Source: Hyphomonadaceae bacterium
GTDB lineage: Bacteria; Pseudomonadota; Alphaproteobacteria; Caulobacterales; Aquidulcibacteraceae
DNA: 64,000 bases
Direction of reading: 5' to 3'
Assembly (NCBI GenBank): GCA_022843225.1
Contig: JALHOC010000006.1
Coordinates: 20,441-84,440 of the forward strand
Shown: positions 12,014 through 61,531 of the stretch, one piece after another
Numbering within the stretch: the first letter of the stretch is position 1
Layout: each line of letters begins with the position of its first letter
Notes under the pieces: generated by a model
Databases searched by the model: none
Told to the model about the DNA's origin: nothing
What the model saw: only the letters and a program-made list of their open reading frames with translations
Made by a program: the position numbers and the translations under genes

Positions 12014-12032
12014 TTTAGTTTGCGAGAACACC

Positions 12033-34320: not shown

Positions 34321-34342
34321 GCGAAGATCGGATCTAGGGCGG

Positions 34343-45614: not shown

Positions 45615-48581
45615 ATGGGGACCAACAATCACAACACACGCGGCCATGGCGCCCGCTCGGCGCTGGCTCTTGCGCTGGCGTCTGTCTCTGGATTTGCGTT
45701 GACAAGCGTCGCGCAAGCGCAAACGCCCGCGCGCGCGGAGCGTGAGAGCAGCGCAGCGGCAACGTACGATATTCCCGCCCAGCCGCTTGGCGCGGCGCTC
45801 ATGCGTTTCGCCGAACAATCAAGACTGCAGGTCCTCTTCGCTGAGCATGACGTCTCCGGACTCACCTCACGTCCGCTCCATGGACGCTTCACCGCGGAGG
45901 CGGCCTTGGCGCAAATACTGCCGCCTGGCGCGCCAAGGATCGAGATCATTGGCGACCAGATCGTACTGGCGGAGCCTCCCCGCCCCCAGTACGCCGAAGA
46001 TGAGAGTGCGTTGGACGAGGAAATTATCGTGACCGGGACGCGGATTCGCGGCGCGGTCCCGGCAGGTTCGAACCTCTTCACATTGGACCGTGAGAGCATC
46101 GAGGAGACCGGTCGTTCAACCGTCGCCGATGTCGTTTCGACACTGCCGCAGAACTTTCCAGGGTCGCAAGGAGAGGCGACACAGCTCGGCGCATCGGACT
46201 CGCGGCGCAATGTCAGCTTTGGCTCGACCGTCGATCTGCGTGGTTTGGGCTCGGATGCGACGCTGACCTTGGTCAATGGCCGCCGCTTGGCCCCTGCCGG
46301 TTTCGGCAATTTTGTGGATGTCAGCGCCATTCCGGTCTCCGCCGTTGAGCGCGTCGAGATTTTGGCCGATGGCGCGTCAGCTACGTACGGCGCCGATGCC
46401 GTCGCCGGCGTCGTCAACATCATCCTACGCGACGATTTCGAGGGCGCTGAAACGGCGCTCCGTTATGGTGGCGCGACGCAAGGCGGGCCTGAAGACATCG
46501 GCGTCTCGCAATTGCTCGGCGCCTCATGGCGCGGCGGCTCGATCATGGCTGGCTACGAGTATCGCCATCGCAGCGATCTTCTGGCGGCCGATCGGTGGTT
46601 TACCTCAGATTCCGATCTGCGCCCCTGGGGTGGGACCAATTTCTCCAGCACATCTTCCAATCCAGGCAACATCACGCGCATTGGCGCAACCAATGTCGTG
46701 CTGGCGATCCCGGAAGGCCAGGACGGCACATCGCTGTCGCAGACTGACCTCTTGGTCGGGGTGCGCAATTTTCAGAATAGCACCGAAGGTCAATCGCTCC
46801 TGCCCGATCAGGAAAGCCATTCTGTGTTCGCGGCGGCGCGCCAGGAGCTTGGCGCACTTACCTTGAGCGCGGAACTCTTGGCCAGCGAGCGCACGGCCTT
46901 CGCCTATTCGCGCCAACTCAACGCCAATCTTACCGTGCCAGAGAGCAATTATTATCGTCAGCTCAACGGGCTTTTTCCGGGCCAAGGCAATCTCATCATC
47001 GCCTACAATCTCGACGCGGACCTCGGACCCACTTGGTACGACACGCGGGCGCGCGCTTTGAGTTCTGTGCTCGGCGCGCAATACCCATTGCCGCGCGACT
47101 GGCAGATCGAAGCCAATTTCGGCTTCGCCCAACACGCCGACGACAGCGTTCAAGGAAACATCTATGATTCCGGCACGCTCAACGCCGCGCTCGCCAGCTC
47201 CAACGTGGCGACCGCGTTCAATCCGTTTGCCGATGGCTCGAACAGCGCCCCAGGCGTGCTCGAAGGCATCACCTATGAATCTCTAAACGGCAGCCGCACC
47301 GACATCACGACGTTCTCGATGCGCGCCGATGGCCCACTTTGGACATTGTGGGGCGGCGCGTTGCGGGCCGCTGTCGGGATTGAGCGCCGGCGCGAGACGT
47401 TCGAATATTACAGCCGCCAGCGCCGACCGAGCGGAATCACCAGCACGGCGCCCTTCCTGCCTGGAGATCGAACGACCGACGCGGTGTTCGCGGAACTGTT
47501 CGCGCCGATCATCGGCGCCGAGAACGGCGTGCCGCTTGTGCGTGATTTCACGCTGTCGTTCTCCCTGCGGCACGAGGCGCCCAGCGACTTCGAGGCGACC
47601 ACCGTACCGAAGATTGGCGTACGCTGGAGTTGGTCGGAAGATTTTGCGCTGCGTGCAACTTGGGGCGAAAGCTTCAAGGCGCCCCAATTCCAGCAAATGC
47701 TCGGCAATACGGTCGGCACGCTCTCTACAGCGACGCCGACGCAAGACCCGTTCGCGACGAACGGTTCAACCGGCGTGCTGCTTCTGGGCGGCTCGAATCG
47801 GTTTCTCGAACCCGAGCAAGCGACGACGTGGACCGCAGGCTTCGACTATAATCCATCTTGGCTTACCGGGCTTGAGCTCGGCGCCACCTATTTCGACATC
47901 GATTTCGTCGATCGCATCGGCAACGCCGGGAGCGTGCTGGCGGCGCTCGCGAATCCTGCTGGCTTTGAGGGCGTCTTCATCCGCAATCCGACGGCGGACC
48001 AGATCGCCGCCTATCTCGGCTTCGCCAATCAAGTCGTCGGCGCGATGCCGCCCGATGGCATCGAGGTCATCTGGGACGGCCGATTGGTCAACCTAGCGAC
48101 GCAACGCACGCGCGGCATCGATCTCAACGCCGCCTACACGCACGACACGGCATTTGGGCAATTGCGCTGGTTCGCCAACGCGTCATTCCTGCTTCAGCAT
48201 GAACGGCGCGCCACGCCCGCCGCGGCGCCGCTCGATTTGCGCGATACGATCTTCAATCCTGTTGATCTGCGCGGCCGCGCTGGCGTGTCGTGGAGCCACG
48301 AAGGCTGGTCGGCGCTCGCGGCCGTCAACTACGTTGATGATTATCGCGACAACATCAGCACCCCCAATCGCGAGATCGATGAATGGGTGACGTGGGACGC
48401 GCGACTTGCGCATACATGGCGCGAGGACGGCGCGCCTGGGCTGCAGATCGCACTCAATGTGCAGAACCTGTTCGATGAAGATCCGCCGTTCGCGAACAAC
48501 CCGATCGGCTACGCCTTCGATTCTCAAAACGCCTCTGGCATCGGCCGCTTCGTCAGCATCGAGCTGCGTAGGACATGGTGA
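45615..48581 (+). CDS. TonB-dependent receptor with N-terminal STN signalling domain (lasso-peptide-associated)
   Basis: STN domain YDIPAQPLGAALMRFAEQSRLQVLFAEHDVSGL; plug EEIIVTGTRIRGAVP; C-terminal ...GIGRFVSIELRRTW; overlaps the isopeptidase gene by 7 bp. Confidence 0.93.
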   Translation: MGTNNHNTRGHGARSALALALASVSGFALTSVAQAQTPARAERESSAAATYDIPAQPLGAALMRFAEQSRLQVLFAEHDVSGLTSRPLHGRFTAEAALAQILPPGAPRIEIIGDQIVLAEPPRPQYAEDESALDEEIIVTGTRIRGAVPAGSNLFTLDRESIEETGRSTVADVVSTLPQNFPGSQGEATQLGASDSRRNVSFGSTVDLRGLGSDATLTLVNGRRLAPAGFGNFVDVSAIPVSAVERVEILADGASATYGADAVAGVVNIILRDDFEGAETALRYGGATQGGPEDIGVSQLLGASWRGGSIMAGYEYRHRSDLLAADRWFTSDSDLRPWGGTNFSSTSSNPGNITRIGATNVVLAIPEGQDGTSLSQTDLLVGVRNFQNSTEGQSLLPDQESHSVFAAARQELGALTLSAELLASERTAFAYSRQLNANLTVPESNYYRQLNGLFPGQGNLIIAYNLDADLGPTWYDTRARALSSVLGAQYPLPRDWQIEANFGFAQHADDSVQGNIYDSGTLNAALASSNVATAFNPFADGSNSAPGVLEGITYESLNGSRTDITTFSMRADGPLWTLWGGALRAAVGIERRRETFEYYSRQRRPSGITSTAPFLPGDRTTDAVFAELFAPIIGAENGVPLVRDFTLSFSLRHEAPSDFEATTVPKIGVRWSWSEDFALRATWGESFKAPQFQQMLGNTVGTLSTATPTQDPFATNGSTGVLLLGGSNRFLEPEQATTWTAGFDYNPSWLTGLELGATYFDIDFVDRIGNAGSVLAALANPAGFEGVFIRNPTADQIAAYLGFANQVVGAMPPDGIEVIWDGRLVNLATQRTRGIDLNAAYTHDTAFGQLRWFANASFLLQHERRATPAAAPLDLRDTIFNPVDLRGRAGVSWSHEGWSALAAVNYVDDYRDNISTPNREIDEWVTWDARLAHTWREDGAPGLQIALNVQNLFDEDPPFANNPIGYAFDSQNASGIGRFVSIELRRTW

Positions 48582-50560
48582 GGCGTCTCGTCCTTGTCGC
48601 GGCCCTGTTGGCTTGCGTCTCCCCCGCCGGCCACGCGCATCCCCCAGGGCGCGTGGCCGGTCCCACCATCGAGGATCTGATCGGCCTCGTCGATTTGGGA
48701 ACCGTGCACGGCGAATTGGCGCTGTCGCCCGACGGCGCCAGCATCGCCGTGTTTGAGCGACGCGCCAATCTTGCGCGCAATGATTACGACTACACGCTCG
48801 TGATCGTTCCAACGCGAGGCGGCCAGCCGCGCCCAATCGCCGACGGCGGCGGCTTCATACGTCACGCCTCGGATGGGCGGCGCACTGGCGGCCCTGCCGA
48901 CCGAACGCCCGTCTGGTCGCCCGACTCAGAATGGGTGGCCTTCATCGCCGAGCGTGAGGGCCGCGCGGAAGTCTGGCGTGCGCACATCGATAGCGGCCGC
49001 GCCGAACAATTGACGCCGCTCGATGGCGACGTCACCAATCTGAAGTGGCTCTCCGACGGTCGACTCCTTGTCGATATGGGCCCGCCGCGCGCCGCTTTGG
49101 CGCATGAAGAAGAGCAAGACGCCGATTTCGGCTATCGCGCCGACGATCGGTTCTCTCCGATCTTCAGTTTGAATCGCATGCCGCGCGGCGATGTGCGGAG
49201 CGTGGTGGTCGATGCTTCAGGCGGTGTTGAGGCGGTTGACGCGACCGTGCGGGCAGCACTCGTTGCTACAGAAAACGCGCTTCTGCCCGTGATTGCGCCT
49301 CAGCCGGGAGCGCCGGCCGTGCAAGCGCCGCCGCGCGAAGTGCGCGTCAATCGCGATGGCCAGACTTTGCGCTGTTCGACAGGTCTGTGCGAGGGCGACA
49401 TTCGCAGCCCCATGTTGCTGGCGAATGGCGATGTCGCGTTCCTGCGCTTCTCCGGTTTCGCGCGCACTGAGACCGGCATCGTCATTTGGACCCCTGAGAC
49501 GGGCGCCCTGCGCCACTTGCCGCTCGATCAGGACCGGCTTGCCTGTGTTGCTGGGCGAGAAATCTATTGCCTGCGCGAATCTACTTGGCGGCCGCGTGAG
49601 CTCATCGCCGTCGATCCAAGCACTGGGGCGAGACGCGTTCTCTATAACGCCAATCCGTCCTGGTCGCGCTTCCCGCGGCCCCGGGTAGAGCGGATCGACT
49701 TCACCGATCAGCGCGGCCTCGAATCCTATGCCCACCTCGTCTATCCAGCCGGATACCGCCGCGGGCGACGCTACCCTCTCGTTATCGTTCAATATCGCTC
49801 GCACGGCTTCTTGCGCGGCGGCACTGGGGGCGATTATCCGATCTACCCGTATGCGGCGCGCGGCTATTTCGTGTTGAGCGTCGAGCGGCCGGACGATCTC
49901 GTCCGTCAAACGCAGGTGGATGCAGATACCTACTTCGTCGAACAGAATTTGAGCGACGAAGAAGACCGGATGAAGCGAGAGGCGCTCGACGCGTTTCTCT
50001 CAGGTCTTGAGCGCCGCGGATTGATCGACCCGCAGCGTATCGCCATCACGGGCTTGAGCGATGGCTCGGAAACGCTCTACCGTGCGCTCTTGCGCCGTCA
50101 TTTCGCCGCCGCGATTGTCTCGACGCATCCGTCAGAGCGTTCGGCTTGGTGGCTCCAATCCGAGACGCTTCGTGCGTATCTTCGCCGCTACGGCGATATT
50201 GTCCCATGGACACAATCGGAGCCCTGGCGCTCATGGTGGAGCGCCAACGCCATTAGCGAACAATCGTCCGCCATCGACACGCCGCTGCTCTTCAATATCG
50301 GCCACAGCGAGGCGATGGGCGCTATGGAGCTCTACGTTCGCTTGCGCGAACAACGCACGCCGACGGAGATGTATCTCTATCCGGACGCCTATCATTTGAA
50401 ATGGCGCCCACTTCAGGTGGTCGCATCGCAAGAACGCGGCATGGCCTGGATCGATTTTTGGCTGCGCGGCGTGGAGGTCGAGGATCCGCGTGACGGCGAA
50501 CGCATCGCCCGCTGGCGCGCGCTCAGACAAGCTGCTCCGACGGCGGAGGCAGCGCCTTGA
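48575..50560 (+). CDS. AtxE2-like lasso peptide isopeptidase (prolyl-oligopeptidase fold)
   Basis: Signal peptide MVRRLVLVAALLACVSPAGHA; beta-propeller repeats; nucleophile elbow ITGLSDGSETLYRALLRR; acid/His region YPDAYHLKWRP; genomic pairing with TonB receptor and lasso B/C genes. Confidence 0.88.
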   Translation: MVRRLVLVAALLACVSPAGHAHPPGRVAGPTIEDLIGLVDLGTVHGELALSPDGASIAVFERRANLARNDYDYTLVIVPTRGGQPRPIADGGGFIRHASDGRRTGGPADRTPVWSPDSEWVAFIAEREGRAEVWRAHIDSGRAEQLTPLDGDVTNLKWLSDGRLLVDMGPPRAALAHEEEQDADFGYRADDRFSPIFSLNRMPRGDVRSVVVDASGGVEAVDATVRAALVATENALLPVIAPQPGAPAVQAPPREVRVNRDGQTLRCSTGLCEGDIRSPMLLANGDVAFLRFSGFARTETGIVIWTPETGALRHLPLDQDRLACVAGREIYCLRESTWRPRELIAVDPSTGARRVLYNANPSWSRFPRPRVERIDFTDQRGLESYAHLVYPAGYRRGRRYPLVIVQYRSHGFLRGGTGGDYPIYPYAARGYFVLSVERPDDLVRQTQVDADTYFVEQNLSDEEDRMKREALDAFLSGLERRGLIDPQRIAITGLSDGSETLYRALLRRHFAAAIVSTHPSERSAWWLQSETLRAYLRRYGDIVPWTQSEPWRSWWSANAISEQSSAIDTPLLFNIGHSEAMGAMELYVRLREQRTPTEMYLYPDAYHLKWRPLQVVASQERGMAWIDFWLRGVEVEDPRDGERIARWRALRQAAPTAEAAP

Positions 50561-52325
50561 TGCGCGCGATCCAGGACTCAGCGATAAGCGCGGCCGAGAG
50601 ACGAAACAACGCCCGCCCCTCCGGCGCTTTGAGATCTTCCTCCAACACGCTACGATCCAGAATGCCGCGGCGCACCAACTCGCCATCGGGCAAAAACGCG
50701 CGGAGATAGTCGAGGTTGTTGTCGAGCGCGCGGCGAAAGTGGCGCGTCGTGTCACCCTTGCGGGTTCTCCCCAATGTCGCAGGCGGCAGGAGGTCGGCAA
50801 ACGCAGCGCGCGCAAGCGCGCGGGTCATTCCTCCATGCTGCATCACGTACGGAGGTATGCGCAGAATTGTCTCCACAACGGGCTGCGACGCGAAAACGGG
50901 CGCCGCAACGCTGTGCGCCGACGCGGGCGTCGGCCGCTGATAGAAGGCGAGATCCAACAGATTGAGCGCGCGATAGGTGCGCGCTGGGCCACGATGATCG
51001 ATGTCGCTGAGCCAAGGATGCGTAAGCTGATACGCAAGCGCAGCTTTTGGGTCGCCGTCCTTAGCATCCGTGTGCGTGTTCAACAGCGCAATGACACGCC
51101 GGCCTTGAGGTTGCACCAGCCCCAGCCAGGATTTGCCGGCAATCTCTGAGAGCGGCTTGCCGCTGAGACGAGCCTCTTCCCAAAGGATGCGTCTGATCTC
51201 AGACCACGGCCTGCCATCGCGAAGGGCGTCGGTGGCGCCATCCGTCAAGGGACGCCGCGAGAACACTTGGTCGCCGCCCTGCCCCGATGTCAGCGCCGAG
51301 ACCCGCTCTTGGTCGAGCGCGCTGGCGATCTCATTACTAGCGAACGCCATGTCGGCCGGCGAAGGCTTCGCGGTCGCCGGCGCGCGCTGGATCGCGGCAT
51401 AGTCAGCGGCGGCGGCGTCAAATGTCAGACCATGGAGCCTAACGCCCACATGCGCGGCCGTACGCGACGCGGCGTCGAACTCGTCTCCCTCAGGCACATT
51501 GAACGGGCGCTCATTGACGCAAACGATGTCGGTTGCGCCACATCGCACCAAGCACGCGAGGGCCGCGCTCGAATCGAAGCCGCCGGAGAGCCGGTGAACA
51601 ATCGGCAGGTCGGCATGCGCCCATGCGCTGGCGGCCGCTTCCGCGCTTCTGCGCAGCGCAGCGCGCGCTTCGTCGAAATCGAAGATAGCGGCTTCTCGCG
51701 CCGGCGGCCACGGCGCCCACGCCACCGATTGCGCCGGCCCGCTGCGCTCCCAATGATAGAGCACGCCGGGTATCGCCTCAGGCACACCACGGAGCCCAGT
51801 GCGCGCGCCTTCAATGCGGGTGTGGCGCAAGAAGAGCGCGATATAGGCGTCATCGATCGTGAGTGAGCTCAATTTCGCCCAATCGGCGACGTCCGTGAAC
51901 ATCACATGCACACCGGGCAATTCCGCGAAATAGCATGCGCGCGCGCCGAGCGGATCGCGCAAGATCAGGACGCGGTCGCGCTCAGAATCGCTGACGACGG
52001 CAAGGTACGGCCCCCAATAATTCTCGACGAGCGCTTGGCCATCGCTGGCGGCCCACGCGCTGACCGCAGCGCTATCAACTTCGTACACACGGCGATCGCC
52101 CCCTTCCCGGCGCTCGAAAAGGATGCCGCTCACAAGGCCTTTGTCGCCGGGCAGCACGATTGCATCGACGTCGCGTGCATCAGAACGAGCAAGCAGGCGA
52201 AGACCGCGGTAATTCACCGCCATCGTCCATGCGCCATCCCGCGTCATGACATCGACGCAGCGCTCCGCGAGCTTGCGGCCATTGTAATCGCCCACTGTGT
52301 ATTTGAAGGCGATGAGCGCGGTCAT
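50523..52325 (-). CDS. Lasso peptide macrolactam synthetase (asparagine-synthase-like, C protein)
   Basis: VHRLSGGFDSSAALACLVRCGATDIVCVN (SGGxDS PP-loop), asparagine synthase fold; start MTALIAFKYTVGDYNG gives a 4-bp overlap with B. Confidence 0.9.
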   Translation of the reverse strand: MTALIAFKYTVGDYNGRKLAERCVDVMTRDGAWTMAVNYRGLRLLARSDARDVDAIVLPGDKGLVSGILFERREGGDRRVYEVDSAAVSAWAASDGQALVENYWGPYLAVVSDSERDRVLILRDPLGARACYFAELPGVHVMFTDVADWAKLSSLTIDDAYIALFLRHTRIEGARTGLRGVPEAIPGVLYHWERSGPAQSVAWAPWPPAREAAIFDFDEARAALRRSAEAAASAWAHADLPIVHRLSGGFDSSAALACLVRCGATDIVCVNERPFNVPEGDEFDAASRTAAHVGVRLHGLTFDAAAADYAAIQRAPATAKPSPADMAFASNEIASALDQERVSALTSGQGGDQVFSRRPLTDGATDALRDGRPWSEIRRILWEEARLSGKPLSEIAGKSWLGLVQPQGRRVIALLNTHTDAKDGDPKAALAYQLTHPWLSDIDHRGPARTYRALNLLDLAFYQRPTPASAHSVAAPVFASQPVVETILRIPPYVMQHGGMTRALARAAFADLLPPATLGRTRKGDTTRHFRRALDNNLDYLRAFLPDGELVRRGILDRSVLEEDLKAPEGRALFRLSAALIAESWIARIKALPPPSEQLV

Positions 52326-52930
52326 GCGCCGCGCATCGGCGTAAACCCCGCACAATATTCGGGATCGTCGTTTATGATGACGCCGCCGATCTCAAGCCAG
52401 GCATGGGCTGAGAACGGTCCGCCGCGCACGGCGTAGATGAGATTGCTCCGCACGCCCGCGCTCCACAGAAATCGGCCGAGCGCCAGCGAATCAAACAGGC
52501 ACGACGCCGCGCGCGGATAGAGCGGACGCCATCTTTGAAATCGGACGACGAGTTCGCGTGCGCCAGCGGCAGCGGCGTCATCAGCGCCTTGGAGCAAAGT
52601 CGTCGCGCGATCGAGCGTACGCCGCTTCATGACGTTGCGGGCCCAAAGCGCGGCGCGCCAGAAAGACCAAAGCCCTTTCCCGTCTCGACTGGGCATGCGT
52701 CTGAGTTCGGGAAGTGACGGATCGCCTGCAGGTCGAAGCAATCCGCGCTCGTCCAGCTGACGCGCCAAACCTGGCGTCTCCAGCTTGGCCATCGGCACGG
52801 AGAGATATGCGTCAGAGCGCAGGTCCAACACGAAGAGCACATCGTTCTCGACCGCCCAACGCACATGCGCGGCCCAGTGTAAAAGTTCGGGCGCTGTGCG
52901 GCGCCCGAACTCGACGGCGTCATGCATCAT
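52322..52930 (-). CDS. Lasso peptide B protein (RRE/PqqD-like B1 fused to transglutaminase-like B2 protease)
   Basis: PqqD-like DVLFVLDLRSDAYLSVPMAKLE...; B2 catalytic Cys/His/Asp pattern RAASCLFDSLALGRFL ... PFSAHAWLEIGGVIINDDPEY; start overlaps the A1 stop. Confidence 0.88.
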   Translation of the reverse strand: MMHDAVEFGRRTAPELLHWAAHVRWAVENDVLFVLDLRSDAYLSVPMAKLETPGLARQLDERGLLRPAGDPSLPELRRMPSRDGKGLWSFWRAALWARNVMKRRTLDRATTLLQGADDAAAAGARELVVRFQRWRPLYPRAASCLFDSLALGRFLWSAGVRSNLIYAVRGGPFSAHAWLEIGGVIINDDPEYCAGFTPMRGA

Positions 52931-53042
52931 AGAAGTCGGGATGCACGAAACCTTCCATGCCGCCCGGCATCCATTCGCCAAGGGTGAGAGCGGTCGCGTC
53001 GCCGAGAACGACCAAGTCCTCGGTCTCGTCACGTTCGTTCAT
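52920..53042 (-). CDS. Lasso peptide precursor A1 (40 aa)
   Basis: MNERDETEDLVVLGDATALTL|GEWMPGGMEGFVHPDFYDA: Thr at -2, Gly1, Glu9 for a 9-residue macrolactam ring; directly upstream of B. In-frame inside the longer 52920..53234 ORF. Confidence 0.9.
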   Translation of the reverse strand: MNERDETEDLVVLGDATALTLGEWMPGGMEGFVHPDFYDA

Positions 53043-53091
53043 GATGTGGTGTCCTGATTGAAGGAGACAAAATTGCGGGCGTCGATCACGC

Positions 53092-53117
53092 CCGGCCGCA
53101 CGGCCTCGTGCGGCCGG
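53092..53117 (-). promoter_or_regulatory. Strong hairpin between the two lasso precursor genes
   Basis: ccggccgcacg-gcct-cgtgcggccgg: perfect 11-bp arms, 4-nt loop. Confidence 0.7.
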
Positions 53118-53131
53118 ACAGACAGCGTCGC

Positions 53132-53260
53132 TCAGCCGACGTCGTATTTGTCGGGGACCGTGAGCGCTTCGATCGATTGTTCGAGCCGTTCGCCCTTGGT
53201 CAGCGCGGTCGCGTCGCCGAGTTCGGTGATGCATTCATCGCGAGTTTGGTCTTCACGCAT
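53132..53260 (-). CDS. Lasso peptide precursor A2 (42 aa)
   Basis: MREDQTRDECITELGDATALTK|GERLEQSIEALTVPDKYDVG: same GDATALTx leader end, Gly1, Glu9; AAGGAG ribosome-binding site upstream. Confidence 0.9.
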   Translation of the reverse strand: MREDQTRDECITELGDATALTKGERLEQSIEALTVPDKYDVG

Positions 53261-53355
53261 TGCTTTACTCCTTGCATGTTCGGAAAGCCGAACGACGAGA
53301 AGCATGACAGCGGCGCTGCAGATCAGGTGGACTATCTCTGTGAATATCTTGAAGG

Positions 53356-53967
53356 CTATTCGCCGTTGCGCGGCAGAGCGGCCAAGCCGGCGCGGGCGCG
53401 AATGCGGCCCGCTTCGCGCACACGCATTTTGAAATGACGGCGAAGTGCTGCCTGAAGCTTCGCCCTACTCTGTTGCGACGCGCCGATGAGATCGTTCAAA
53501 TGCGCGCTTATCCGCTCCAGCACTTCGGGCTCCGCGGCCCGCGCCAAAGTGAGGCGCGCGTCCGCTGCCGCGATCGCGCGCGCCAGTTCGCCGTGGCGGC
53601 CTTCTTCAATGTGCGTAAAGACACCCGCCAGCGCTTCCACATAGGGGCGCTTGTTCAGATTGCTTGGTAACGGACGCACCTCGTAGGCCGCACTCGCCAA
53701 GGCCGCGAGCTGACCGCGCCACAGATAAAGCACCGAAAGCTCCCGTTCGCTCCAGAACGCGACCGAATAGCCTTTGCCCGGCGTCAGCTTCACCAATCTT
53801 TCAACGGTGAGCACAGCGAGCGCATGCCGCACGGGCGTTGCGCTCGCCTGCAAGCGCGCGGCAAGGGTCTCGATGTCCAGATGCTCCCGCGCGCGCAATG
53901 ACCCACTAAGTATGGCCTCTCGCAACGTCGCATAGACGCGTTCGGTGACGCCTGTTTCTCCCGCCAT
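53356..53967 (-). CDS. GntR-family (FadR/FCD-like) transcriptional regulator
   Basis: VTERVYATLREAILSGSLRAREHLDIETLAARLQASATPVRHALAVLTVERLVKLTPGKGYSV wHTH. Confidence 0.9.
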   Translation of the reverse strand: MAGETGVTERVYATLREAILSGSLRAREHLDIETLAARLQASATPVRHALAVLTVERLVKLTPGKGYSVAFWSERELSVLYLWRGQLAALASAAYEVRPLPSNLNKRPYVEALAGVFTHIEEGRHGELARAIAAADARLTLARAAEPEVLERISAHLNDLIGASQQSRAKLQAALRRHFKMRVREAGRIRARAGLAALPRNGE

Positions 53968-54863
53968 CAGCCGCCGGCGCTCTCCTGCTCTTGATAGAGC
54001 GCACGCAATTGCTCGGCGATCTCCGGCGTCAGCGCATCGATGTGCGGCGAAGGCGTGCGATCGTCATCGAGATAACGGATCGGATCCTGGCCCTCCCAGC
54101 CGCCCAGATTTGGCCGGTGCATCTGATAGCCGAGGAGACGCTGCAGCCGCTCGGGAAAGCAGCGCGCGACGTCACGGGGATAGGCGAGAAATTGGTTCTC
54201 GTAGGTTTTCAGCCAACCGAGGCAATAGCTGACGATGACTCCAGTGCGCGCAGCAAGGCTTCGATTGGCGCCAGCGCCGTGGGTCAGCGAGCCGAGGAAG
54301 AGAAGCGCCGAGCCCGCCGGCATCGCCGCGGCGATCGCATTCTTCGGGTCAACATTGCGGTCAAGCTCGCTTAAGTGCGATCCGGGCCAAATGCGGGTAG
54401 CACCATTCTCTTCGGTGAAGTCGTCGACCGCCCACATCACATTCAAAAGCCATTCCATCCCCTGCTTGTCGGCAGGCCACATCTCTTCATCGCGGTGCGG
54501 CGCCTGGGCGCGCTCACCCGGATGCACCCTGGTCGCTTGGGTGAGATTGAGTTGGATACAATCGCATTGCGCGGAGAGCAGCGCCTCGGCGATGGCCAGA
54601 ATGCGCGGCTCCAGCACCAAGTGCTGCACCGATGGCGCCTTCGACAAGAGCCCGCCGACGCGCGTCGTTTTCCAGCCGTAGAAATCACCTTCGCAGCGCG
54701 GCGTTGTACGCAGCCAAGGCTCCAATTCTTGGACGAGCTGGCGAACCTGCGACGGCGTCAGCACATTCTCCAGAATGAGATAACCATCACGCTCAAGCCG
54801 ATCGACGTCGCCGCGCACTGGCGAGTGCGCACTCTGGCGAGAAGGCAGATCAATCACGTTCAT
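53967..54863 (-). CDS. Phytanoyl-CoA dioxygenase (PhyH)-like Fe(II)/2OG oxygenase
   Basis: LERDGYLILENVLTPSQVRQL, APHRDEEMW (HxD), FTEENGATRIWPGSH, FLGSLTHGAGANRS (His...Arg). Confidence 0.88.
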   Translation of the reverse strand: MNVIDLPSRQSAHSPVRGDVDRLERDGYLILENVLTPSQVRQLVQELEPWLRTTPRCEGDFYGWKTTRVGGLLSKAPSVQHLVLEPRILAIAEALLSAQCDCIQLNLTQATRVHPGERAQAPHRDEEMWPADKQGMEWLLNVMWAVDDFTEENGATRIWPGSHLSELDRNVDPKNAIAAAMPAGSALLFLGSLTHGAGANRSLAARTGVIVSYCLGWLKTYENQFLAYPRDVARCFPERLQRLLGYQMHRPNLGGWEGQDPIRYLDDDRTPSPHIDALTPEIAEQLRALYQEQESAGG

Positions 54864-54878
54864 GGGTGTTCTCCTTCG

Positions 54879-55508
54879 CTAGGCTGCGCGCGCCAGCGCG
54901 CCAGGGGTAAAGCGCGTCAAAGGCGCTGTTGCGCCAAGCGCTTCGCGGACGCGCTTCAAGCCGCTGGAATCGATGTCGGCGACATAGGCGCGCAGCTTCT
55001 CACGACCGACGCGTTTCTCGGCGCCAAGCGGCGCGACGCTCCAACCCGCGCCTTCAGCTAGCGGTGCGAGGGCTGCGCTTGCGACATAGGTGATGCGCTC
55101 GATCCCAAAGAGCAGGCCCGTCTCCATGATCGCGCCGATCATGCGCAGCAGGAGTTCGTGGCGCGCGGGTCCGCGCGGTGTTCCCGGCGCGGGGCAAAAC
55201 CTGGTCGCTTCCCAAACGCGCGGGCCGCTCGGCGGCGGCTCCTCGCATAGACAAGAGAACACTTCGTTCAAAAGGTGCGGCCGAACCGTCGGCAGAAGGC
55301 GCGCCGAGGCGGTGACCGCCGCACGCGCATCGTCGGCCTCGATCAGATAGACGACATCTTCGGCGTCGTAGGAATCGATCTCGATCCCCATTTCGTCATT
55401 GAGCCGCCAGCCGAGCTCATCGATGAACACCCGCTTCCGTTGCACGTGCATCTCCATCAGCGCGTGGCGGAAGAGGTGGCGGTTCTCAGCGGTGACGATG
55501 TGGATCAT
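54879..55508 (-). CDS. LuxI-family acyl-homoserine-lactone synthase
   Basis: MIHIVTAENRHLFRHALMEMHVQRKRVFIDELGWRLNDEMGIEIDSYDAEDVVYLIEADDARAAVTASARLLPTVRPHLLNEVF...VWEATRFCP: LuxI motif; start codon at 55508. Confidence 0.88.
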   Translation of the reverse strand: MIHIVTAENRHLFRHALMEMHVQRKRVFIDELGWRLNDEMGIEIDSYDAEDVVYLIEADDARAAVTASARLLPTVRPHLLNEVFSCLCEEPPPSGPRVWEATRFCPAPGTPRGPARHELLLRMIGAIMETGLLFGIERITYVASAALAPLAEGAGWSVAPLGAEKRVGREKLRAYVADIDSSGLKRVREALGATAPLTRFTPGALARAA

Positions 55509-55566
55509 GGCGCAACTCCTCGGTCTCAAAGCGCCGCGAGGATTTGCGCGTTCTCGTTCCAGGCGA

Positions 55567-55588
55567 AAGAGGCACGTCCGTGCCTCTT
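55567..55588 (-). promoter_or_regulatory. 22-bp palindrome in the luxR-luxI intergenic region
   Basis: aagaggcacg-tc-cgtgcctctt: perfect 10-bp arms. Confidence 0.65.
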
Positions 55589-55618
55589 GACGGGTCCGTC
55601 CAACCGTGACTCGGCGCG

Positions 55619-56353
55619 TCAGTCGGCCACGTCTTCGATCAGGATTTCGCGGTCGCGGAGCGCGCGCGCGAACATCTGAATCCGGCTGACGACGCCATAC
55701 TTGCGCATGATGCGGCGAACCGTGTTGTGCACCGTGTGTTGGCTGATGCCCAAGATAACGCCGATTTCGAAATCGCCTTTGCCGCGTGCGATCAGTTCGA
55801 TGCATTGGCGTTCGCGCTTGGTGAGCAAGCGTGGGCGCGTAACCGCGAGCTTGAGCAACAGACGCCGCACCGTCTCGTGCGCATAAACCGCATACCAATG
55901 AGCTTGGCCTGGGCTGAGCGGATCAATGTCGTCAGGACCGATCACCAGCGAACACGACGCTGGTAAAGCATTCGGCGCATGAATTGGGATCGTAAAGCCA
56001 TCGCGAAGCCCCGCTTCAGCAGCGGCGTTCAGGATCGCGATCTGATCGGGCGCCAATCTACGCCGAAACTTCTTATCGCTCCATCGAAACGGCAAGGCTT
56101 GAATGCGCGCCGTGAAGAAGATGGGATCGCGAGCGGCTAAGCCCTCGTTGCTGAAATGCTCGACCCAAGGGCGGGGATAATCGAGCATCATCACCGCCCC
56201 CTCTGGAGGGTTCAACGGATCAACGTGCGAGGCGCAAGCGGCGTAGGAGAAGCCTAGCCTTCGCACCTCGCGCATGAAGATCTCTTGTACCTCATCGACC
56301 GATTGAGCGCGTTCGCACATTTCCGCGAACGACCAATTGAGTCGCGCTTGCAT
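55619..56353 (-). CDS. LuxR-family quorum-sensing regulator (autoinducer-binding + GerE HTH)
   Basis: Autoinducer domain DYPRPWVEHFSNEGLAARDPIFFTARIQALPFRWSD; HTH LTKRERQCIELIARGKGDFEIGVILGISQHTVHNTVRRIMRKYGV. Confidence 0.9.
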   Translation of the reverse strand: MQARLNWSFAEMCERAQSVDEVQEIFMREVRRLGFSYAACASHVDPLNPPEGAVMMLDYPRPWVEHFSNEGLAARDPIFFTARIQALPFRWSDKKFRRRLAPDQIAILNAAAEAGLRDGFTIPIHAPNALPASCSLVIGPDDIDPLSPGQAHWYAVYAHETVRRLLLKLAVTRPRLLTKRERQCIELIARGKGDFEIGVILGISQHTVHNTVRRIMRKYGVVSRIQMFARALRDREILIEDVAD

Positions 56354-56382
56354 CGCCTTTCTCCCGCCTCACACCTACCACC

Positions 56383-56402
56383 ACCTGTAGTTGCTACTAC
56401 CG
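56383..56402 (-). promoter_or_regulatory. lux-box-like element upstream of luxR
   Basis: ACCTGTAGTTGCTACTACCG: ACCTGTAG/CTAC dyad 30 bp upstream of the luxR start codon. Confidence 0.4.
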
Positions 56403-56508
56403 CCGTAGAATTGCCGCGCTGGCAAGCGCTCGCGGCCGCTCATTGCGGATATTTTCCAGAATATTTTCCGATGCTTTGACGCTCACGCTTTTGAGGCGAG
56501 AGCCAGCG

Positions 56509-56656
56509 CCCACGCTTTGGCGCGGGACATGAAGATCGCCCGCGCGGGACCTCGCGTCCAGGGGCGCGTGCGCTCGCCTCTAACGAGGCGCCCTGGACCC
56601 AAGGCCCCTCATGCGCGGGCGGAACGACGAGCACGCCGCCCGCGCCAAAGCGTGGG
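56509..56656 (+). promoter_or_regulatory. Nested long inverted repeat, leader of parB
   Basis: Perfect 18-bp arms cccacgctttggcgcggg (56509-56526) / cccgcgccaaagcgtggg (56639-56656), with further nested arms (cccgcgc/gcgcggg; gtccaggggcgc/gcgccctggac; ctcg/cgag). Confidence 0.75.
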
Positions 56657-56701
56657 CCCCGGCGGCATTCGCCGCCGGGCCTCCTTCCAAGGAATGCCCA
56701 A

Positions 56702-58621
56702 ATGTCGTTTCAACTCATTCCACTCAATCAGCTCGTCGCATCGTCCGCCAATGTGCGGCGCACCGATCGCAAAGCCGATGTCGACGCATTGTCAGCCTCG
56801 ATCCTCGCGCACGGGCTCTTGCAGAATCTTTCCGTGCAAGCGCGCGGTGAGCAGCGATTTGAAGTCGTCGCCGGCGCGCGCCGTCACGCGGCGCTGAAGC
56901 GCCTCGCCAAGGAAGGCAAGATCGCCCGCGACTTCGCGGTGCCGTGCAATCTCGTCGCGCCTGATGGCGCCTCAGAGACTTCTCTCGCCGAGAACGTCCA
57001 CCGCGTCCCGATGAATGCGATGGACGAAGCCGACGCATTTGCGGCCTTAATCGACCAGGGTTTCGACACTGACGCGATCGCCGCTCGCTTTGGCGTCGCC
57101 ACGCGGCATGTCGAGCAACGCATCGCATTGGCGCAGCTCTCGCCTAAGCTGAAAGCCAGCTATTGGCGCGGTGAGATCAATCTCGACGCCGCGCGCGCCT
57201 TCACAATCGAACCCGACCACGCCAAGCAGGACGCGGTGTTGCGCGCCCTGGGAAAGCCCATCCTGCAAGCAAGCCAAGTGCGCGCCCTCCTCACCCAGGG
57301 CGCAATGAAGGCGAGCGATCGCATCCCCCGCTTCGTCGGACTTGAATCATATGAGGAAGCTGGCGGCGCCCTCATCCGCGATCTCTTCGATCCTGATACC
57401 GTTTTTGTCGCCGATCCCGGTTTGATGACGCGGCTCGCCGACGCGCGGATGGAAGCGATTCGCGAAGAGCTCATCGCCCAAGGCTGGGGTTGGGTCGATG
57501 TCGATCTGGGCCTTGGCCGGCTCACAGCGCAATCTGGTCAGCGTATCCAACCAACACGCCGACCGATGACGCGCGGCGAGCGGCGTGCGCTTGCCGCACT
57601 CGATGCAGAGATCGCGGCCAGCGAAACCAAACTCAACGATCCGGAGATTGAAGACGATGGGCTCTGGCCCCAACACCAAGCGCTCGAAGCCAAGCGCCAA
57701 GCGCTCATCGCCGCGACTGACCAATGGGACAAGGAGCTCATCGCCCATGCAGGGACCATCGTGCGCCTCGACCATGAAGGCCGCGCACATTTCACGCATG
57801 GGATTGTCGCTAAAGCAGATGCGGGCCAACTCAAGCGCGTTCTGGCCGCGCGCGCGCCAGAGGGCCAAGCGCCCGATGCGGAAGCCGCCGATCGCGGCGA
57901 TCAAACGCCCGCGTCAACTGGACCAAAGCTCTCCAAAGCGCTGGCGCGAGAGCTAACCACCGCCCGGTCGATCGCGTTGCGCGAAGCCGTATCTCAGTCA
58001 CCGGATCTGGCCCTCGGCATCATCGTCTATGCCGGCGTCAAAACCGCGCTGCAGAACGCTCGTGCGCACGGCGTCGAATTGACCATGCTCGCCGTGGCCG
58101 CGGCAGATGCCGACACCCTTGAAAACGCGCGCATGCGTCTCACGTCCACGCTCCCGAGCAGCGACGCGGAGCTTCTCGATTGGTGCCTTGCCCAGAGCCG
58201 CGAGCGTTTGCTCGAAGCCCTGGCTATTCTCCTCGCCGGCGCGCTCGATCTGGCGCACGAAGCGCACACGAGCGCCGATACCGCGCTCCAAGGCTTTGCC
58301 GATCGCCTTGCGGGTGCGGTCAATCTCGACATTCGTTCGCATTGGTCCGCCGATGTCGGCTTCTTGTCGCGGCTGCCGAAATCGATGCTGATGCAGATCG
58401 CAGCGGATGCGCCGTCAATCGCGGCAAAGACGCCGAAGCGGCGCGAACTTCAGCTCAAAGCCTGGGCCAAGATGAAGCGCGACGATCTTGCAAAGGCGGT
58501 CGCCAAAGTGATCGGCGGCGCCGGTTGGCTGCCGGACCTCTTGATCACGCCTGTTCCGGCAGGCGCTCTTGTCGTCACAGACGAAGGCCAAGCCGCGGCT
58601 GCATCGATCGCGGCTGAATGA
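56702..58621 (+). CDS. parB: ParB/RepB/Spo0J-family protein
   Basis: LIPLNQLVASSANVRRTDRKADVDALSASILAHGLLQNLSVQARG..FEVVAGARRHAALKRLAKEG...SLAENVHRVPMNAMDEADAFAALIDQG. Confidence 0.9.
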   Translation: MSFQLIPLNQLVASSANVRRTDRKADVDALSASILAHGLLQNLSVQARGEQRFEVVAGARRHAALKRLAKEGKIARDFAVPCNLVAPDGASETSLAENVHRVPMNAMDEADAFAALIDQGFDTDAIAARFGVATRHVEQRIALAQLSPKLKASYWRGEINLDAARAFTIEPDHAKQDAVLRALGKPILQASQVRALLTQGAMKASDRIPRFVGLESYEEAGGALIRDLFDPDTVFVADPGLMTRLADARMEAIREELIAQGWGWVDVDLGLGRLTAQSGQRIQPTRRPMTRGERRALAALDAEIAASETKLNDPEIEDDGLWPQHQALEAKRQALIAATDQWDKELIAHAGTIVRLDHEGRAHFTHGIVAKADAGQLKRVLAARAPEGQAPDAEAADRGDQTPASTGPKLSKALARELTTARSIALREAVSQSPDLALGIIVYAGVKTALQNARAHGVELTMLAVAAADADTLENARMRLTSTLPSSDAELLDWCLAQSRERLLEALAILLAGALDLAHEAHTSADTALQGFADRLAGAVNLDIRSHWSADVGFLSRLPKSMLMQIAADAPSIAAKTPKRRELQLKAWAKMKRDDLAKAVAKVIGGAGWLPDLLITPVPAGALVVTDEGQAAAASIAAE

Positions 58622-58818
58622 CTTCCCCGAGGCGCGCTGCGTTGGCTGCGGTCGATGCAGCGCGTTCTTCATGCGGTCTTCTGTTTTCTCACCTGCGAGC
58701 TGCGCCTCGAAGCGCTAGCGCAAGGAATGCGATCTTCCGCCGCCGCCGTCGTGATCGCCCGCCATCCCGACCGGTTATTTGCGAACACGCACGTCCATGC
58801 TTGCGCTCCCCTCTGATG

Positions 58819-59001
58819 CATTTCGCCGGGTCGCATTCGCTTGTCCGCCTGACGCCATGCGTCCGTCAGGTCGTGGGCGCAAGGGGCCGTGTGCTCGGCT
58901 AAGCCTGCGCGCCGCACCAAGCCCCCTTGCGTCCACGCACGCTCGCGCTCCTTCGACGGCCGCCCGTGCTGAGGCGTCGCGAACGCGACCCCGGCGGAAT
59001 G
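58819..59001 (+). promoter_or_regulatory. Nested inverted repeats, leader of ssb
   Basis: Imperfect arms cattTCGCCGGGTCGCATTCGC (58819-58840) / GCGAACGCGACCCCGGCGGAATG (58979-59001); inner arms cgtgggcgcaaggggc / gcccccttgcgtccacg. Confidence 0.6.
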
Positions 59002-59026
59002 AACCGCAGGCATTGGAGCACAAGCA

Positions 59027-59440
59027 ATGGACAAGGCATCATTTGAAATCATCGGCAACGTGGGCAAAGTCGAGATCAAGGGCGTGAAGGGGGACAAGAA
59101 GATCGCCATCCTCTCGATCGCCACCTCCGAGCGCTGGAAGCGCGACAATGGCGAGTGGAACGAAAAGACTTACTGGCATCGCGTCGCCGTCTTCGCCCCC
59201 GCCAAGGTGGAGCGCATCGAAGCGCAGGTCCAGAAAGGCACGCGTCTTCGTCTCGTCGGTCAGATTCGTCCTGGCTCCTACGAAGACAATCGAGGCCAGA
59301 CCAAATACGTGGTCGAGTTCGTGGTCGGCCCCTTCGGCGACGTCGAAATTCTGGCGCGCGGCAAGGCGCGAGAAGAGACCGCTGAGTCCAAGCCCAGCCG
59401 ACGCAAGGCCAATAGCGCCGATACGAGCGCGAACGCGTAA
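59027..59440 (+). CDS. ssb: Single-stranded DNA-binding protein
   Basis: FEIIGNVGKVEIKGVKGDKKIAILSIATSERWKRDNGEWNEKTYWHRVAVFAPAKVERIEAQVQKGTRLRLVGQIRPGSYEDNRGQTKYVVEFVV OB-fold. Confidence 0.92.
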   Translation: MDKASFEIIGNVGKVEIKGVKGDKKIAILSIATSERWKRDNGEWNEKTYWHRVAVFAPAKVERIEAQVQKGTRLRLVGQIRPGSYEDNRGQTKYVVEFVVGPFGDVEILARGKAREETAESKPSRRKANSADTSANA

Positions 59441-59490
59441 TCGGTAACGCTCGGGCGGGCTTCGGCTCGCCCGAGTATCTTGTGCGTCTA

Positions 59491-59667
59491 CTCCGCTTGG
59501 CCGGGCGGCCCCCAGCGCCGTCTGAGTGAATGCGGCGAGCGCGGCCGCCGCGCAACGGCTCGATTGCGAGCCGTCCTCCACTGACGTTGCGGGCCAAGGC
59601 TGCGCGGCGCCCGCGCACGCCGTCTTTGAACGAACTCCGTCGCCGGGCGCCGCCCGGCCAAACGGAG
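59491..59667 (+). promoter_or_regulatory. Nested long inverted repeat, leader of ardC
   Basis: Arms ctccgcttggccgggcggc (59491-59509) / gccgcccggccaaacggag (59649-59667), 18/19 complementary; apical acggctcg-attg-cgagccgt. Confidence 0.72.
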
Positions 59668-59675
59668 CGAGTCTC

Positions 59676-60587
59676 ATGTCCATTCTCGAAAAATTCTCAC
59701 CCGCGCAACGCGTCACCCAAGCCATCGAAAGCGCCTTACGTCAGGGCGTTCGCCCCTGGGCCAAACCCTGGCGCGACGAGGCGTGCGGCGCGCCACTCAT
59801 CTTGCCGCGCCGCGCCAATGGCGAACCCTATCGCGGTATGAATGTCGTGGCGCTCTGGGCCGCTTCTGAACAAGCGGGCTTTACCTCCCCCTATTGGCTC
59901 ACCTTCAAGCAAGCGCTGGCGCTCGGCGGGCAAGTCCGCAAAGGCGAGCGCGGTTCGTTCGTTGTCTTCTACAAGGAACTGAAATCCGAAGATCAAGCGA
60001 CTGGAGCGGCTGAGGACGCGGAAATGAAACTGCGCCGTATTCTGCGCGGCTATGTCGTGTTCAATCGCGTGCAGATCGACGGCCTGGACGGACGTTACGA
60101 CCCGCCCGCGCCCACCGCGCCGCAGACGCCGGACGCGTTCGCCGCGCGGTTCGCCAAAGTACCGGCCCACATCCGCTATGGCGGCGCGCGCGCCTTCTAC
60201 GCACCCTCCTCCGACCACGTACAATTGCCGCCAAAGGCGGCCTTTATCGACACGACCCAATTCTACGCCACGCTCGCGCACGAGCTCGGGCATTGGACCC
60301 GTCATCCTTCAAGACTCGATCGCGACTTCGGCCAGAAGCGGTTTGGCGATCATGGCTATGCGCTTGAAGAATTGGTCGCCGAATTGTGCGCCGCCTTCGT
60401 TGGCGCCGTCATCGATTTGCCGAGCGAGCATATCGAAGATCACGCTGCTTACATCCACCACTGGCTTGGCGTGCTGAAGGAAAATCCCTCTGCATTCCTC
60501 ACTGCCGCCGGCAAGGCGCAAGCAGCTGCCGATTACCTCTTGCGCCTTATGGGCGAGAGCACGGCGAGCTCACCGCCACCAGAATGA
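59676..60587 (+). CDS. ardC: ArdC-like antirestriction protein (ssDNA-binding + zincin)
   Basis: RVTQAIESALRQGVRPWAKPWR...YRGMNVVALW...YWLTFKQALALGGQVRKGERGSFVVFYK...TLAHELGHWTRHPSRLDR...YALEELVAELCAAF. Confidence 0.92.
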   Translation: MSILEKFSPAQRVTQAIESALRQGVRPWAKPWRDEACGAPLILPRRANGEPYRGMNVVALWAASEQAGFTSPYWLTFKQALALGGQVRKGERGSFVVFYKELKSEDQATGAAEDAEMKLRRILRGYVVFNRVQIDGLDGRYDPPAPTAPQTPDAFAARFAKVPAHIRYGGARAFYAPSSDHVQLPPKAAFIDTTQFYATLAHELGHWTRHPSRLDRDFGQKRFGDHGYALEELVAELCAAFVGAVIDLPSEHIEDHAAYIHHWLGVLKENPSAFLTAAGKAQAAADYLLRLMGESTASSPPPE

Positions 60588-60628
60588 GGAAGGTCGAGTG
60601 TGCCCAGACAACGTCGCACACTGCGCCC

Positions 60629-61135
60629 ATGCGACACGTCTGGCTCATTGCATGTACGTTGCTCGCGGCCGCCGCCTGCGCCGCGAGCTTCACGCGTGTC
60701 CGAGATGTGGTGCTGTACAATTCCTCGCCCAGCGTCCCGGTCGGGTTCTACTGGCGCACCGATGAGCCCCCGGAGCTTGGAGATTACGTCACCGTGCGCG
60801 CTGCCGATGTCGCGCCTCGCTATGCGGCGATCCGCGACTTTGCCGACGCCGACGACCGTTTCATCAAGCGCGTGGCCGCGCGTGGAGGAACACGCGTCTG
60901 TGCGTCACCCACATTGGTTCACGTCGGCGCGGACATAACGCTCACCAGACGTACTACTGACGGCGCCAATCGACCGCTTCCCTCGTGGTCTGGTTGCCGC
61001 GTGCTAGCAGCGGATGAGGTCTTCCTCGTGGGCGACACGGACGACAGCTTCGATAGCCGCTATTGGGGCCCGGTTCGCGCCCAGAGGATCGAAGGGGTCT
61101 GGAGACGCTTGCAGCGCTGGGGCCACGGCGCCTAG
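60629..61135 (+). CDS. TraF-like S26 family signal peptidase (conjugation-associated)
   Basis: LYNSSPSVPVGFYWRTDEPPELGDYVTVRA...FIKRVAARGGTRVC...VFLVGDTDDSFDSRYWGPVRAQRIEGV. Confidence 0.88.
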   Translation: MRHVWLIACTLLAAAACAASFTRVRDVVLYNSSPSVPVGFYWRTDEPPELGDYVTVRAADVAPRYAAIRDFADADDRFIKRVAARGGTRVCASPTLVHVGADITLTRRTTDGANRPLPSWSGCRVLAADEVFLVGDTDDSFDSRYWGPVRAQRIEGVWRRLQRWGHGA

Positions 61136-61144
61136 AATCTCCCT

Positions 61145-61531
61145 ATGCTCGCGCCCATCATCCTTGCCATCGGAGCGCTTCTCCTCTTCCCGCTGCTCGG
61201 CTCGTGCGTGCGGCGCGCCATTCCGCTTGCACTCGCAGGCGTCTCAGGCTGGTTCGCCTTCACGCTTTCAGGGGAGGTCGGCATAGCGCTGCTCGCGAGC
61301 TTTTGTGTCCTCTGCTGCGCCATGCTGGTGCTCGATGACCTGGCTCAGACACGGCGGTCTCGTCCGATCCTGATCGCCGCTGAAGTCTTGGCTGGCGCCG
61401 GATTGGTGATGACACTCGCTTTTGCGGTGCTGCACTCGGCCGACGCGGAAGGCATCACTGTGGCAATCGCCATCCTCGTCAGCGGCATGCTTGCGGCGAG
61501 CGTAAGTCTGCGTTTCCGAGGCGCGGCCTGA
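61145..61531 (+). CDS. Small membrane protein
   Basis: Hydrophobic 128-aa ORF following traF-like gene. Confidence 0.5.
   Translation: MLAPIILAIGALLLFPLLGSCVRRAIPLALAGVSGWFAFTLSGEVGIALLASFCVLCCAMLVLDDLAQTRRSRPILIAAEVLAGAGLVMTLAFAVLHSADAEGITVAIAILVSGMLAASVSLRFRGAA

Follow-up and report, generated by a model that had tools for sequence, protein, structure and literature searches.

A luxR-luxI-phyH-gntR set joined to lasso peptide genes in a Hyphomonadaceae bacterium, with GntR as a probable relay

We found a complete cell-to-cell signalling circuit joined to lasso peptide genes; this combination is repeated in dozens of other bacteria, close relatives as well as unrelated ones, a linkage that goes beyond chance. 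Population signals therefore probably switch lasso peptide synthesis by way of a relay regulator: LuxR and an acyl-homoserine lactone (AHL) would drive luxI-phyH-gntR, and GntR would in turn control the lasso promoter. We give this model as a whole a probability of roughly 0.6. It builds on what can be read directly from the DNA, namely gene content, order, overlaps, conservation and two unique DNA elements, each of which tracks a regulator. The window, the whole stretch of DNA analysed (64,000 nucleotides of contig JALHOC010000006.1), contains the following features of the locus:

55619-56353, minus strand: luxR, AHL-binding LuxR-type regulator, 244 aa (PF03472, 1.3e-26; PF00196, 3.1e-12)
55568-55587, no strand: lux box AGAGGCACGGACGTGCCTCT, a palindrome 59 bp upstream of the luxI start codon
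54879-55508, minus strand: luxI, AHL synthase, 209 aa (PF00765, 4.4e-21)
53967-54863, minus strand: phyH, Fe(II)/2-oxoglutarate dioxygenase of the PhyH family, 298 aa (PF05721, 2.4e-32, 113 bits)
53356-53967, minus strand: gntR, FadR-like GntR regulator, 203 aa (PF00392, 2.5e-12)
53321-53348, minus strand: candidate GntR operator before A2, 28 bp, GATATTCACAGA GATAGTCCACCT GATC
53132-53260, minus strand: lasso precursor A2, 42 aa, predicted core GERLEQSIEALTVPDKYDVG (sequence reading, lasso leader motif)
53090-53119, minus strand: strong hairpin between A2 and A1 (folding of 53043-53131)
52920-53042, minus strand: lasso precursor A1, 40 aa, predicted core GEWMPGGMEGFVHPDFYDA (sequence reading, lasso leader motif)
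52322-52930, minus strand: lasso B leader peptidase, transglutaminase-like (NF033537, 6.6e-16; PF13471)
50523-52325, minus strand: lasso C macrolactam cyclase, asparagine synthase-like (PF00733, 3.1e-22, 80 bits)
48575-50560, plus strand: lasso isopeptidase, AtxE2 family, convergent with C (NF033523, 2.9e-162)
45615-48581, plus strand: TonB-dependent receptor (PF00593, 9e-34; PF07715, 4.5e-16)

Re-checking the window gave the minus-strand order luxR, luxI, phyH, gntR, A2, A1, B, C, and every detail of content, order, strand, gaps and overlaps that we checked in the earlier sequence-only reading was correct. The luxI-phyH gap is 15 bp, the phyH stop and gntR start share 1 bp (TGATG), A1 and B overlap by 8-11 bp depending on the choice of start codon, and B and C overlap by 4 bp. 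The gap between gntR and A2 is 95 bp. Scanning 52900-56700 for consensus sigma-70 promoters gave no hit, and no convincing terminator was found between luxI and A2. The isopeptidase and TonB receptor, which face the lasso strand, were absent from that reading.

The LuxR domains scored 93.3 bits (PF03472) and 46.4 bits (PF00196), both above cut-off, and LuxI scored 75.7 bits with PF00765 (cut-off 24), its catalytic residues R24, F28, W34, D45, D48, R70, E100 and R103 being invariant among 14 sequences. PhyH is part of the signalling half; its Fe/2OG site is intact (H123, D125, H195 and R206 invariant among 16 sequences), and it would most likely oxidise the signal or another small molecule. The winged helix-turn-helix of GntR scored 46.7 bits with PF00392 (cut-off 27). 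A Pfam search gave no FCD match, while the predicted fold resembles FCD regulators (TM 0.71-0.74): the model, computed without rows from plasmid records (pLDDT 89), resembles PmiR (7xp0, TM 0.74) and TM0439 (3sxy, TM 0.71).

On the biosynthetic side, both precursors show the features that we looked for, namely T at -2, G as the first core residue and an acidic side chain at core position 8 or 9, which is E at position 9 in each (leader/core junctions ALTK/GERLEQSIE in A2 and ALTL/GEWMPGGME in A1). The two precursors scored 20.9 and 24.1 bits with the benenodin precursor family NF033522, under its curated cut-off of 33, which rules out membership, and they also fall below the curated cut-off for the albusnodin family; in this they differ from both. 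Lasso B scored 58.9 bits with NF033537 (cut-off 33), and the isopeptidase adjoining the cyclase 541.7 bits with NF033523 (cut-off 400). The segment between the two precursors (53043-53131) folds at -41.2 kcal/mol (z = -3.6), and 0 of 200 shuffles were equally stable.

How widely are the two halves joined? Among 30 genomes of the genus to which this bacterium belongs (Terricaulis-like Hyphomonadaceae), lasso-type LuxI and isopeptidase occurred together in 18 and were both lacking in 12, an agreement of 30/30 (Fisher p = 1e-8). The set luxR-luxI-phyH-gntR was present in 21 of the 22 complete genus lasso clusters with sufficient flank, so the neighbourhood survey suggested by the sequence-only reading found that the blocks are not consistently separate within the genus. 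One genome carries both a quorum-sensing (QS) operon that stands free of lasso genes (L050) and a lasso locus that lacks the QS operon (L065), and up to three cassettes occur within one genome (G018, G019). No lasso genes were seen beside the LuxI relatives without gntR (L058-L062). Sphingomonad plasmids showed the linkage in 5 of 13 loci, the other 8 being without luxI; carriers of the joined architecture belong to Novosphingobium, Sphingomonas and Sphingobium. The four-gene set flanks isopeptidase clusters in Sphingomonas paeninsulae, with identical gene order, and in Novosphingobium PP1Y, ES2-1 and THN1. Sphingomonads also contain gntR-A-B-C clusters without luxRI, which indicates that quorum control is dispensable for the biosynthetic part. 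In gammaproteobacteria, including Povalibacter uvarum, four loci have luxR-luxI before lasso B-C with gntR absent (phyH is present in three), so the relay cannot be general. An isopeptidase survey across the class was positive in 2 of 395 genomes, too sparse for a rate.

With as many as 3 mismatches allowed, the lux box occurs once in the genome (2.86 Mb searched); since no second one was found in the locus or genome at this threshold, we rejected the lasso genes as direct LuxR targets. All linked relatives have a counterpart with altered sequence and a retained palindrome: its 18 distinct versions are 75% complementary about the centre versus 16-28% when shifted, and single positions use up to four pair types, compensating changes that preserve the palindrome. 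Its identity tracks LuxR (r = 0.56) and does not track B or C. We also considered whether the palindrome was a terminator of luxR; this was ruled out, as no loop separates the arms at several of the loci and sites of the L049 type lack a T run.

The second element, the candidate GntR operator, consists of GAT words spaced in 12-bp steps and occurs once in the genome. Its pattern, derived from the same related loci on which matches were counted, gave 27 matches in 511 kb, every one upstream of A; of the 28 loci that contain gene B, 26 have the element. In locus L034 it is repeated before the second precursor. Operator identity tracks GntR (r = 0.83; 0.73 given LuxR), versus r = 0.08 for B and 0.04 for C, although this tracking could arise from shared inheritance alone, since the operator adjoins gntR.

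From these features we infer AHL production, binding by LuxR and GntR, co-transcription, a sign of GntR action and a role for PhyH, arranged as follows. LuxI would make an AHL; LuxR with the AHL would bind the single lux box and, in a positive feedback loop, drive a single, translationally tight operon, luxI-phyH-gntR. Produced under quorum control, GntR would be the relay, binding the 28-bp element and setting the activity of the A2-A1-B-C promoter by activation or repression. Activation is slightly favoured because no consensus promoter was found before the lasso genes, so theirs probably needs help. Some read-through from luxI into the lasso genes may occur, given the lack of a convincing terminator. 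A, B and C would make two lasso peptides, which the TonB receptor, a probable lasso uptake protein, would import and the isopeptidase open. We propose that the locus as a whole forms a mobile cassette, conserved among its carriers, in which regulation and biosynthesis are combined.

The alternative that survives best, although we consider it unlikely, is that LuxR and LuxI control transfer of a mobile element, as TraR/TraI do for rhizobial plasmids, and that the lasso genes are cargo with their own GntR control. The pair does lie beside mobile-element genes, as in TraR/TraI systems; a block that begins just past luxR recurs beside many relatives:

56702-62963, plus strand: mobile-element backbone, comprising ParB, SSB, ArdC, signal peptidase S26 and a relaxase-like gene (Pfam; context only)

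Moreover, PP1Y has its luxR close to traG, on a plasmid of the conjugative kind, and a sphingomonad luxR-luxR-luxI-phyH locus adjoins virB genes (PMC4288048, in excerpt). However, the TraI and TraR models scored 64.6 and 44.7 bits, far under their cut-offs of 250, and the sole lux box in the genome, with as many as 3 mismatches allowed, precedes luxI, with no second one before the transfer genes. Five loci (L033, L036, L037, L042, L047) keep luxRI-phyH-gntR-lasso without an adjoining ParB, and the lasso-free LuxI group is without gntR. The ParB backbone as the reason for the linkage was ruled out, as it is not constant across relatives.

Next comes simple co-transcription, in which LuxR drives a single luxI-phyH-gntR-A2-A1-B-C transcript and GntR is minor or unrelated. 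The shared direction, tight junctions and terminator-free luxI-A2 interval would suit it, but a unique conserved element stands in the gntR-A2 gap and is repeated in L034, GntR accompanies A-B-C in the clusters without luxRI, and a single transcript is ruled out in PP1Y, ES2-1 and THN1, where A-B-C lies on the strand opposite luxR-luxI-phyH-gntR, about 10 kb away. We regard it as improbable here. The sequence-only reading had proposed one regulon under AHL control. Conservation strongly favours such control (21/22 clusters, 30/30 genomes), while the simple operon gives way to the likelier relay, in which the only lux box precedes luxI and A2 has an element of its own that tracks GntR.

The histories of LuxR, LuxI and PhyH correlate mutually at 0.80-0.91 and those of B and C at 0.93, versus 0.01-0.16 between QS genes and B/C; synteny is nevertheless kept. 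These independent histories point to lasso cargo exchanged beneath a conserved circuit. They would also fit accessory genes gathered without regulatory coupling at one mobile-element insertion spot, as would the mobile-element genes beside both halves, but the 18/12/0/0 presence pattern, the order and gntR junction retained despite repeated B/C exchange, and a pairing repeated in three lineages with different backbones make this very improbable. A broader extension of the relay model is tentative: a mobile cassette family, in which every member has a separate AHL synthase, receptor and diversified lux box and gates lasso peptides through GntR, with signal and peptide parts reshuffled among cassettes, might form insulated, kin-restricted private channels.

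Co-directional luxR, luxI, then phyH is shared with known sphingomonad loci (Novosphingobium NovR/NovI; PMC3704786, PMC4288048, both in excerpt), and PhyH is 45-48% identical to that of sphingomonad plasmids. The excerpts of PMC4288048 mention neither gntR nor lasso, and those of PMC3704786 no lasso genes; PP1Y, a strain from these papers, carries lasso genes and gntR beside luxR-luxI-phyH. Unlike sphingomonad topology T (luxR-luxR-luxI-phyH-X-virB, virB1-3), our locus has a single luxR, and gntR and lasso genes follow phyH. It resembles isopeptidase-type alphaproteobacterial clusters (AtxE/benenodin, astexin-like) in its T at -2 and in an A-B-C block that converges on genes for an isopeptidase and a TonB receptor, but differs in embedding luxR-luxI-phyH upstream. 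The sequence-only reading placed this outside the commonly described architecture. The arrangement is not unique, however: it recurs in Povalibacter and on plasmids from Novosphingobium, Sphingomonas and Sphingobium, and a 2022 paper (PMC9318849, in excerpt) lists an antiSMASH hserlactone/lassopeptide hybrid in Qipengyuania pacifica NZ-96T and Citromicrobium sp. JL477. Compared by description, that hybrid shares the AHL synthase, B2 protein, asparagine synthetase, Atxe2 isopeptidase and TonB receptor; as excerpted, it carries the antiSMASH label only, without regulatory model, operator or survey.

If the relay model is true, an AHL circuit with a GntR relay supplies an inducer for isopeptidase-type lasso peptides and ties them to population density, and gntR and phyH beside sphingomonad luxI gain a testable function. 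Cultured carriers include Povalibacter uvarum DSM 26723, Novosphingobium PP1Y and ES2-1, and Sphingomonas paeninsulae YZ-8.

The sequence-only reading had contrasted the locus with ECF/FecR/TonB regulation; this contrast probably does not hold for the uptake arm, for which two further genes bear on control:

33814-34320, plus strand: ECF-like sigma factor, 168 aa ORF directly before FecR (sequence reading alone)
34343-35284, plus strand: FecR regulator (PF04773, 2.5e-12)

The sigma factor may belong to the uptake arm. FecR lies 10 kb from TonB in this window and adjoins it in relatives, and ECF/FecR control is therefore probably retained for this arm.

Family searches and sequence reading confirmed the minus-strand order luxR, luxI, phyH, gntR, A2, A1, B, C proposed in the sequence-only reading, with its 15-bp luxI-phyH gap, 1-bp phyH/gntR overlap (TGATG) and A1/B and B/C overlaps. 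The locus lies on contig C6 of a 2.86-Mb genome that is 99.5% complete. Its genes are listed by window position.

55619-56353, minus strand, luxR
54879-55508, minus strand, luxI
53967-54863, minus strand, phyH
53356-53967, minus strand, gntR
53132-53260, minus strand, A2 (lasso precursor)
52920-53042, minus strand, A1 (lasso precursor)
52322-52930, minus strand, B (leader peptidase)
50523-52325, minus strand, C (macrolactam cyclase)
48575-50560, convergent with C, AtxE2-family isopeptidase (541.7 bits; cut-off 400)
45615-48581, on the convergent side with the isopeptidase, TonB receptor

A1 and A2 each carry a leader with the lasso threonine at -2, and in both the predicted core has G at position 1 and E at position 9. 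The catalytic residues of LuxI and the iron/2-oxoglutarate site of PhyH (H-x-D...H...R) are intact, and in solved-structure searches PhyH was nearer by far to biosynthetic dioxygenases than to human phytanoyl-CoA hydroxylase. A strong hairpin (z = -3.6) lies between A2 and A1, a layout found in other lasso operons.

We searched 60 relatives, mostly metagenome assemblies, for LuxI, the isopeptidase and the cyclase, and mapped the regions with iterated profiles. Within the genus (Terricaulis-like Hyphomonadaceae, judged by neighbours), 18 of 30 genomes have both a LuxI of the close group (57-100% identity) and the isopeptidase, and the other 12 have neither (Fisher p = 1.2e-8, although these genomes are kin and therefore not 30 independent events). 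One isopeptidase split over two frames (G001) was scored present and fragments in G005 and G020 absent. Twenty-one of the 28 close-group LuxI loci continue into phyH, gntR, B, C, isopeptidase and TonB, six stop at a contig edge, and one (L050) is a quorum-sensing (QS) operon without lasso genes. The neighbourhood survey suggested by the earlier reading likewise found luxI/luxR beside B and C in 21 of 22 complete lasso clusters with sufficient flank, the exception being L065. The join of luxI-phyH to lasso genes is nearly fixed in the genus.

Some loci depart from this layout. A second LuxI group (47-52% identity) has luxR-luxI-phyH and, where flanks permit checking, neither gntR nor lasso genes. 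Its member in this genome (L060, G000:C81:5862-6479), on a short contig without gntR or lasso genes, indicates that phyH beside luxI is not tied to lasso genes; a different near-palindrome, ACAACCTATGATTGTA, lies upstream of its luxI. One genome, G008, splits the parts: L050 (contig C12) holds the QS operon with gntR, and L065 (C7) has lasso genes, preceded at A by the A operator described below, with no gntR nearby. This natural split could test trans action. At L036 a 1.7-kb insertion, resembling by reading only mercury-resistance and MerR-like coding sequence, parts luxR from luxI and leaves the lux box next to luxI. Four loci (L042, L043, L044, L047) have a tandem luxR pair ahead of luxI.

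Every linked locus has a palindrome, the lux box, about 50-62 bp before luxI. Around the centre its 18 distinct versions show 75% complementarity, vs 16-28% around shifted centres, with as many as four complementary pair types at one position; such compensating change points to an operator of the LuxR type and not to a sequence relic. Allowing up to 3 mismatches, a scan of this genome returns the box a single time. Between gntR and A lies a second element of 28 bp, named the A operator here, in which AT words recur every 12 bp; it too is single-copy in this genome. A pattern drawn from its alignment, and tuned on the loci counted here, gave 27 matches in 511 kb of related loci. These fall in 26 of the 28 loci that have gene B, each one ahead of a precursor gene, and nowhere else in the 511 kb. 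We propose a relay in which LuxR/AHL at the lux box would drive luxI-phyH-gntR, and GntR would then act on the A operator. The predicted model of GntR, a FadR-like winged-helix protein, resembles FCD-type regulators, so a small-molecule ligand is possible. If it represses A, quorum would shut the peptide off.

Across 16 non-redundant loci, A-operator identity tracked that of GntR (r = 0.83; 0.73 with LuxR removed) and not that of B (0.08) or C (0.04), and lux-box identity tracked LuxR (0.56) and neither B nor C. Because the operator adjoins gntR, inheritance as one block confounds the first correlation; its sharp drop at B, ~400 bp further, points to frequent exchange nearby and leaves the confounder in place.

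One common history joins LuxR, LuxI and PhyH (r = 0.80-0.91) and another joins B and C (0.93), while the two sets are unrelated (0.01-0.16) and GntR is intermediate. DNA identity to L033 is mostly 0.67-0.79 through the end of phyH and ~0.5 beyond; to L036 it mostly stays at 0.6-0.75 across luxI and the first part of phyH, then rises to 0.76-0.95 from the last part of phyH on. The junction between histories in this locus is near phyH/gntR. That gene order is kept despite swapped parts is the strongest argument for function.

Outside the genus, a Sphingomonas paeninsulae YZ-8 plasmid has the identical gene order adjoining ECF-FecR-TonB-isopeptidase. Novosphingobium PP1Y, ES2-1 and THN1 (the last an unannotated record with some genes partly split between frames) place luxR-luxI-phyH-gntR ahead of this block and carry A-B-C on the other strand, a layout that cannot work by read-through and favours a trans-acting relay. 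In Sphingobium indicum UT26S pCHQ1, luxI-phyH lies ~5 kb from the block and gntR precedes A. Eight of 13 distinct plasmid loci have no luxI nearby, and seven of these keep gntR directly before A. Among gammaproteobacteria, Povalibacter uvarum DSM 26723 (L101), two MAGs (L104, L106) and L177 have luxR-luxI 2-7 kb before B-C, with phyH in the first three and gntR in none. This survey places gntR on the lasso side in many bacteria, joined by luxI-phyH in some. Gammaproteobacterial luxR-luxI-phyH-gntR sets also occur at L175, L176 and L179; at L175, repeated ECF/FecR pairs and a TonB receptor follow, and lasso B and C were not found within the 20 kb covered.

Earlier reports establish luxR-luxI-phyH in sphingomonads (PMC3704786, PMC4288048) and list an hserlactone/lassopeptide hybrid for Qipengyuania pacifica and Citromicrobium (PMC9318849). 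A literature search covering few subscription papers returned none combining lasso peptide with LuxR and isopeptidase, or with Novosphingobium and quorum sensing. The parts are known, and the conserved coupling, relay operator, diversified boxes and cargo exchange appear undescribed.

Elsewhere in the window, 56702-62963 encodes a mobile-element backbone (ParB, SSB, ArdC anti-restriction, S26 signal peptidase, relaxase-like protein) that recurs next to many relatives' loci. A defence-like region spans 8127-32687, with these PADLOC model matches.

8127-15440, Zac/Mko-like proteins
20007-26879, type I restriction-modification
30669-32687, HerA-like ATPase

A sigma-factor-like ORF and FecR (33814-35284) are separated from the TonB receptor by 10 kb, with a subtilase of 1186 aa and a protein of metallo-beta-lactamase fold among the intervening genes; in relatives FecR adjoins TonB.
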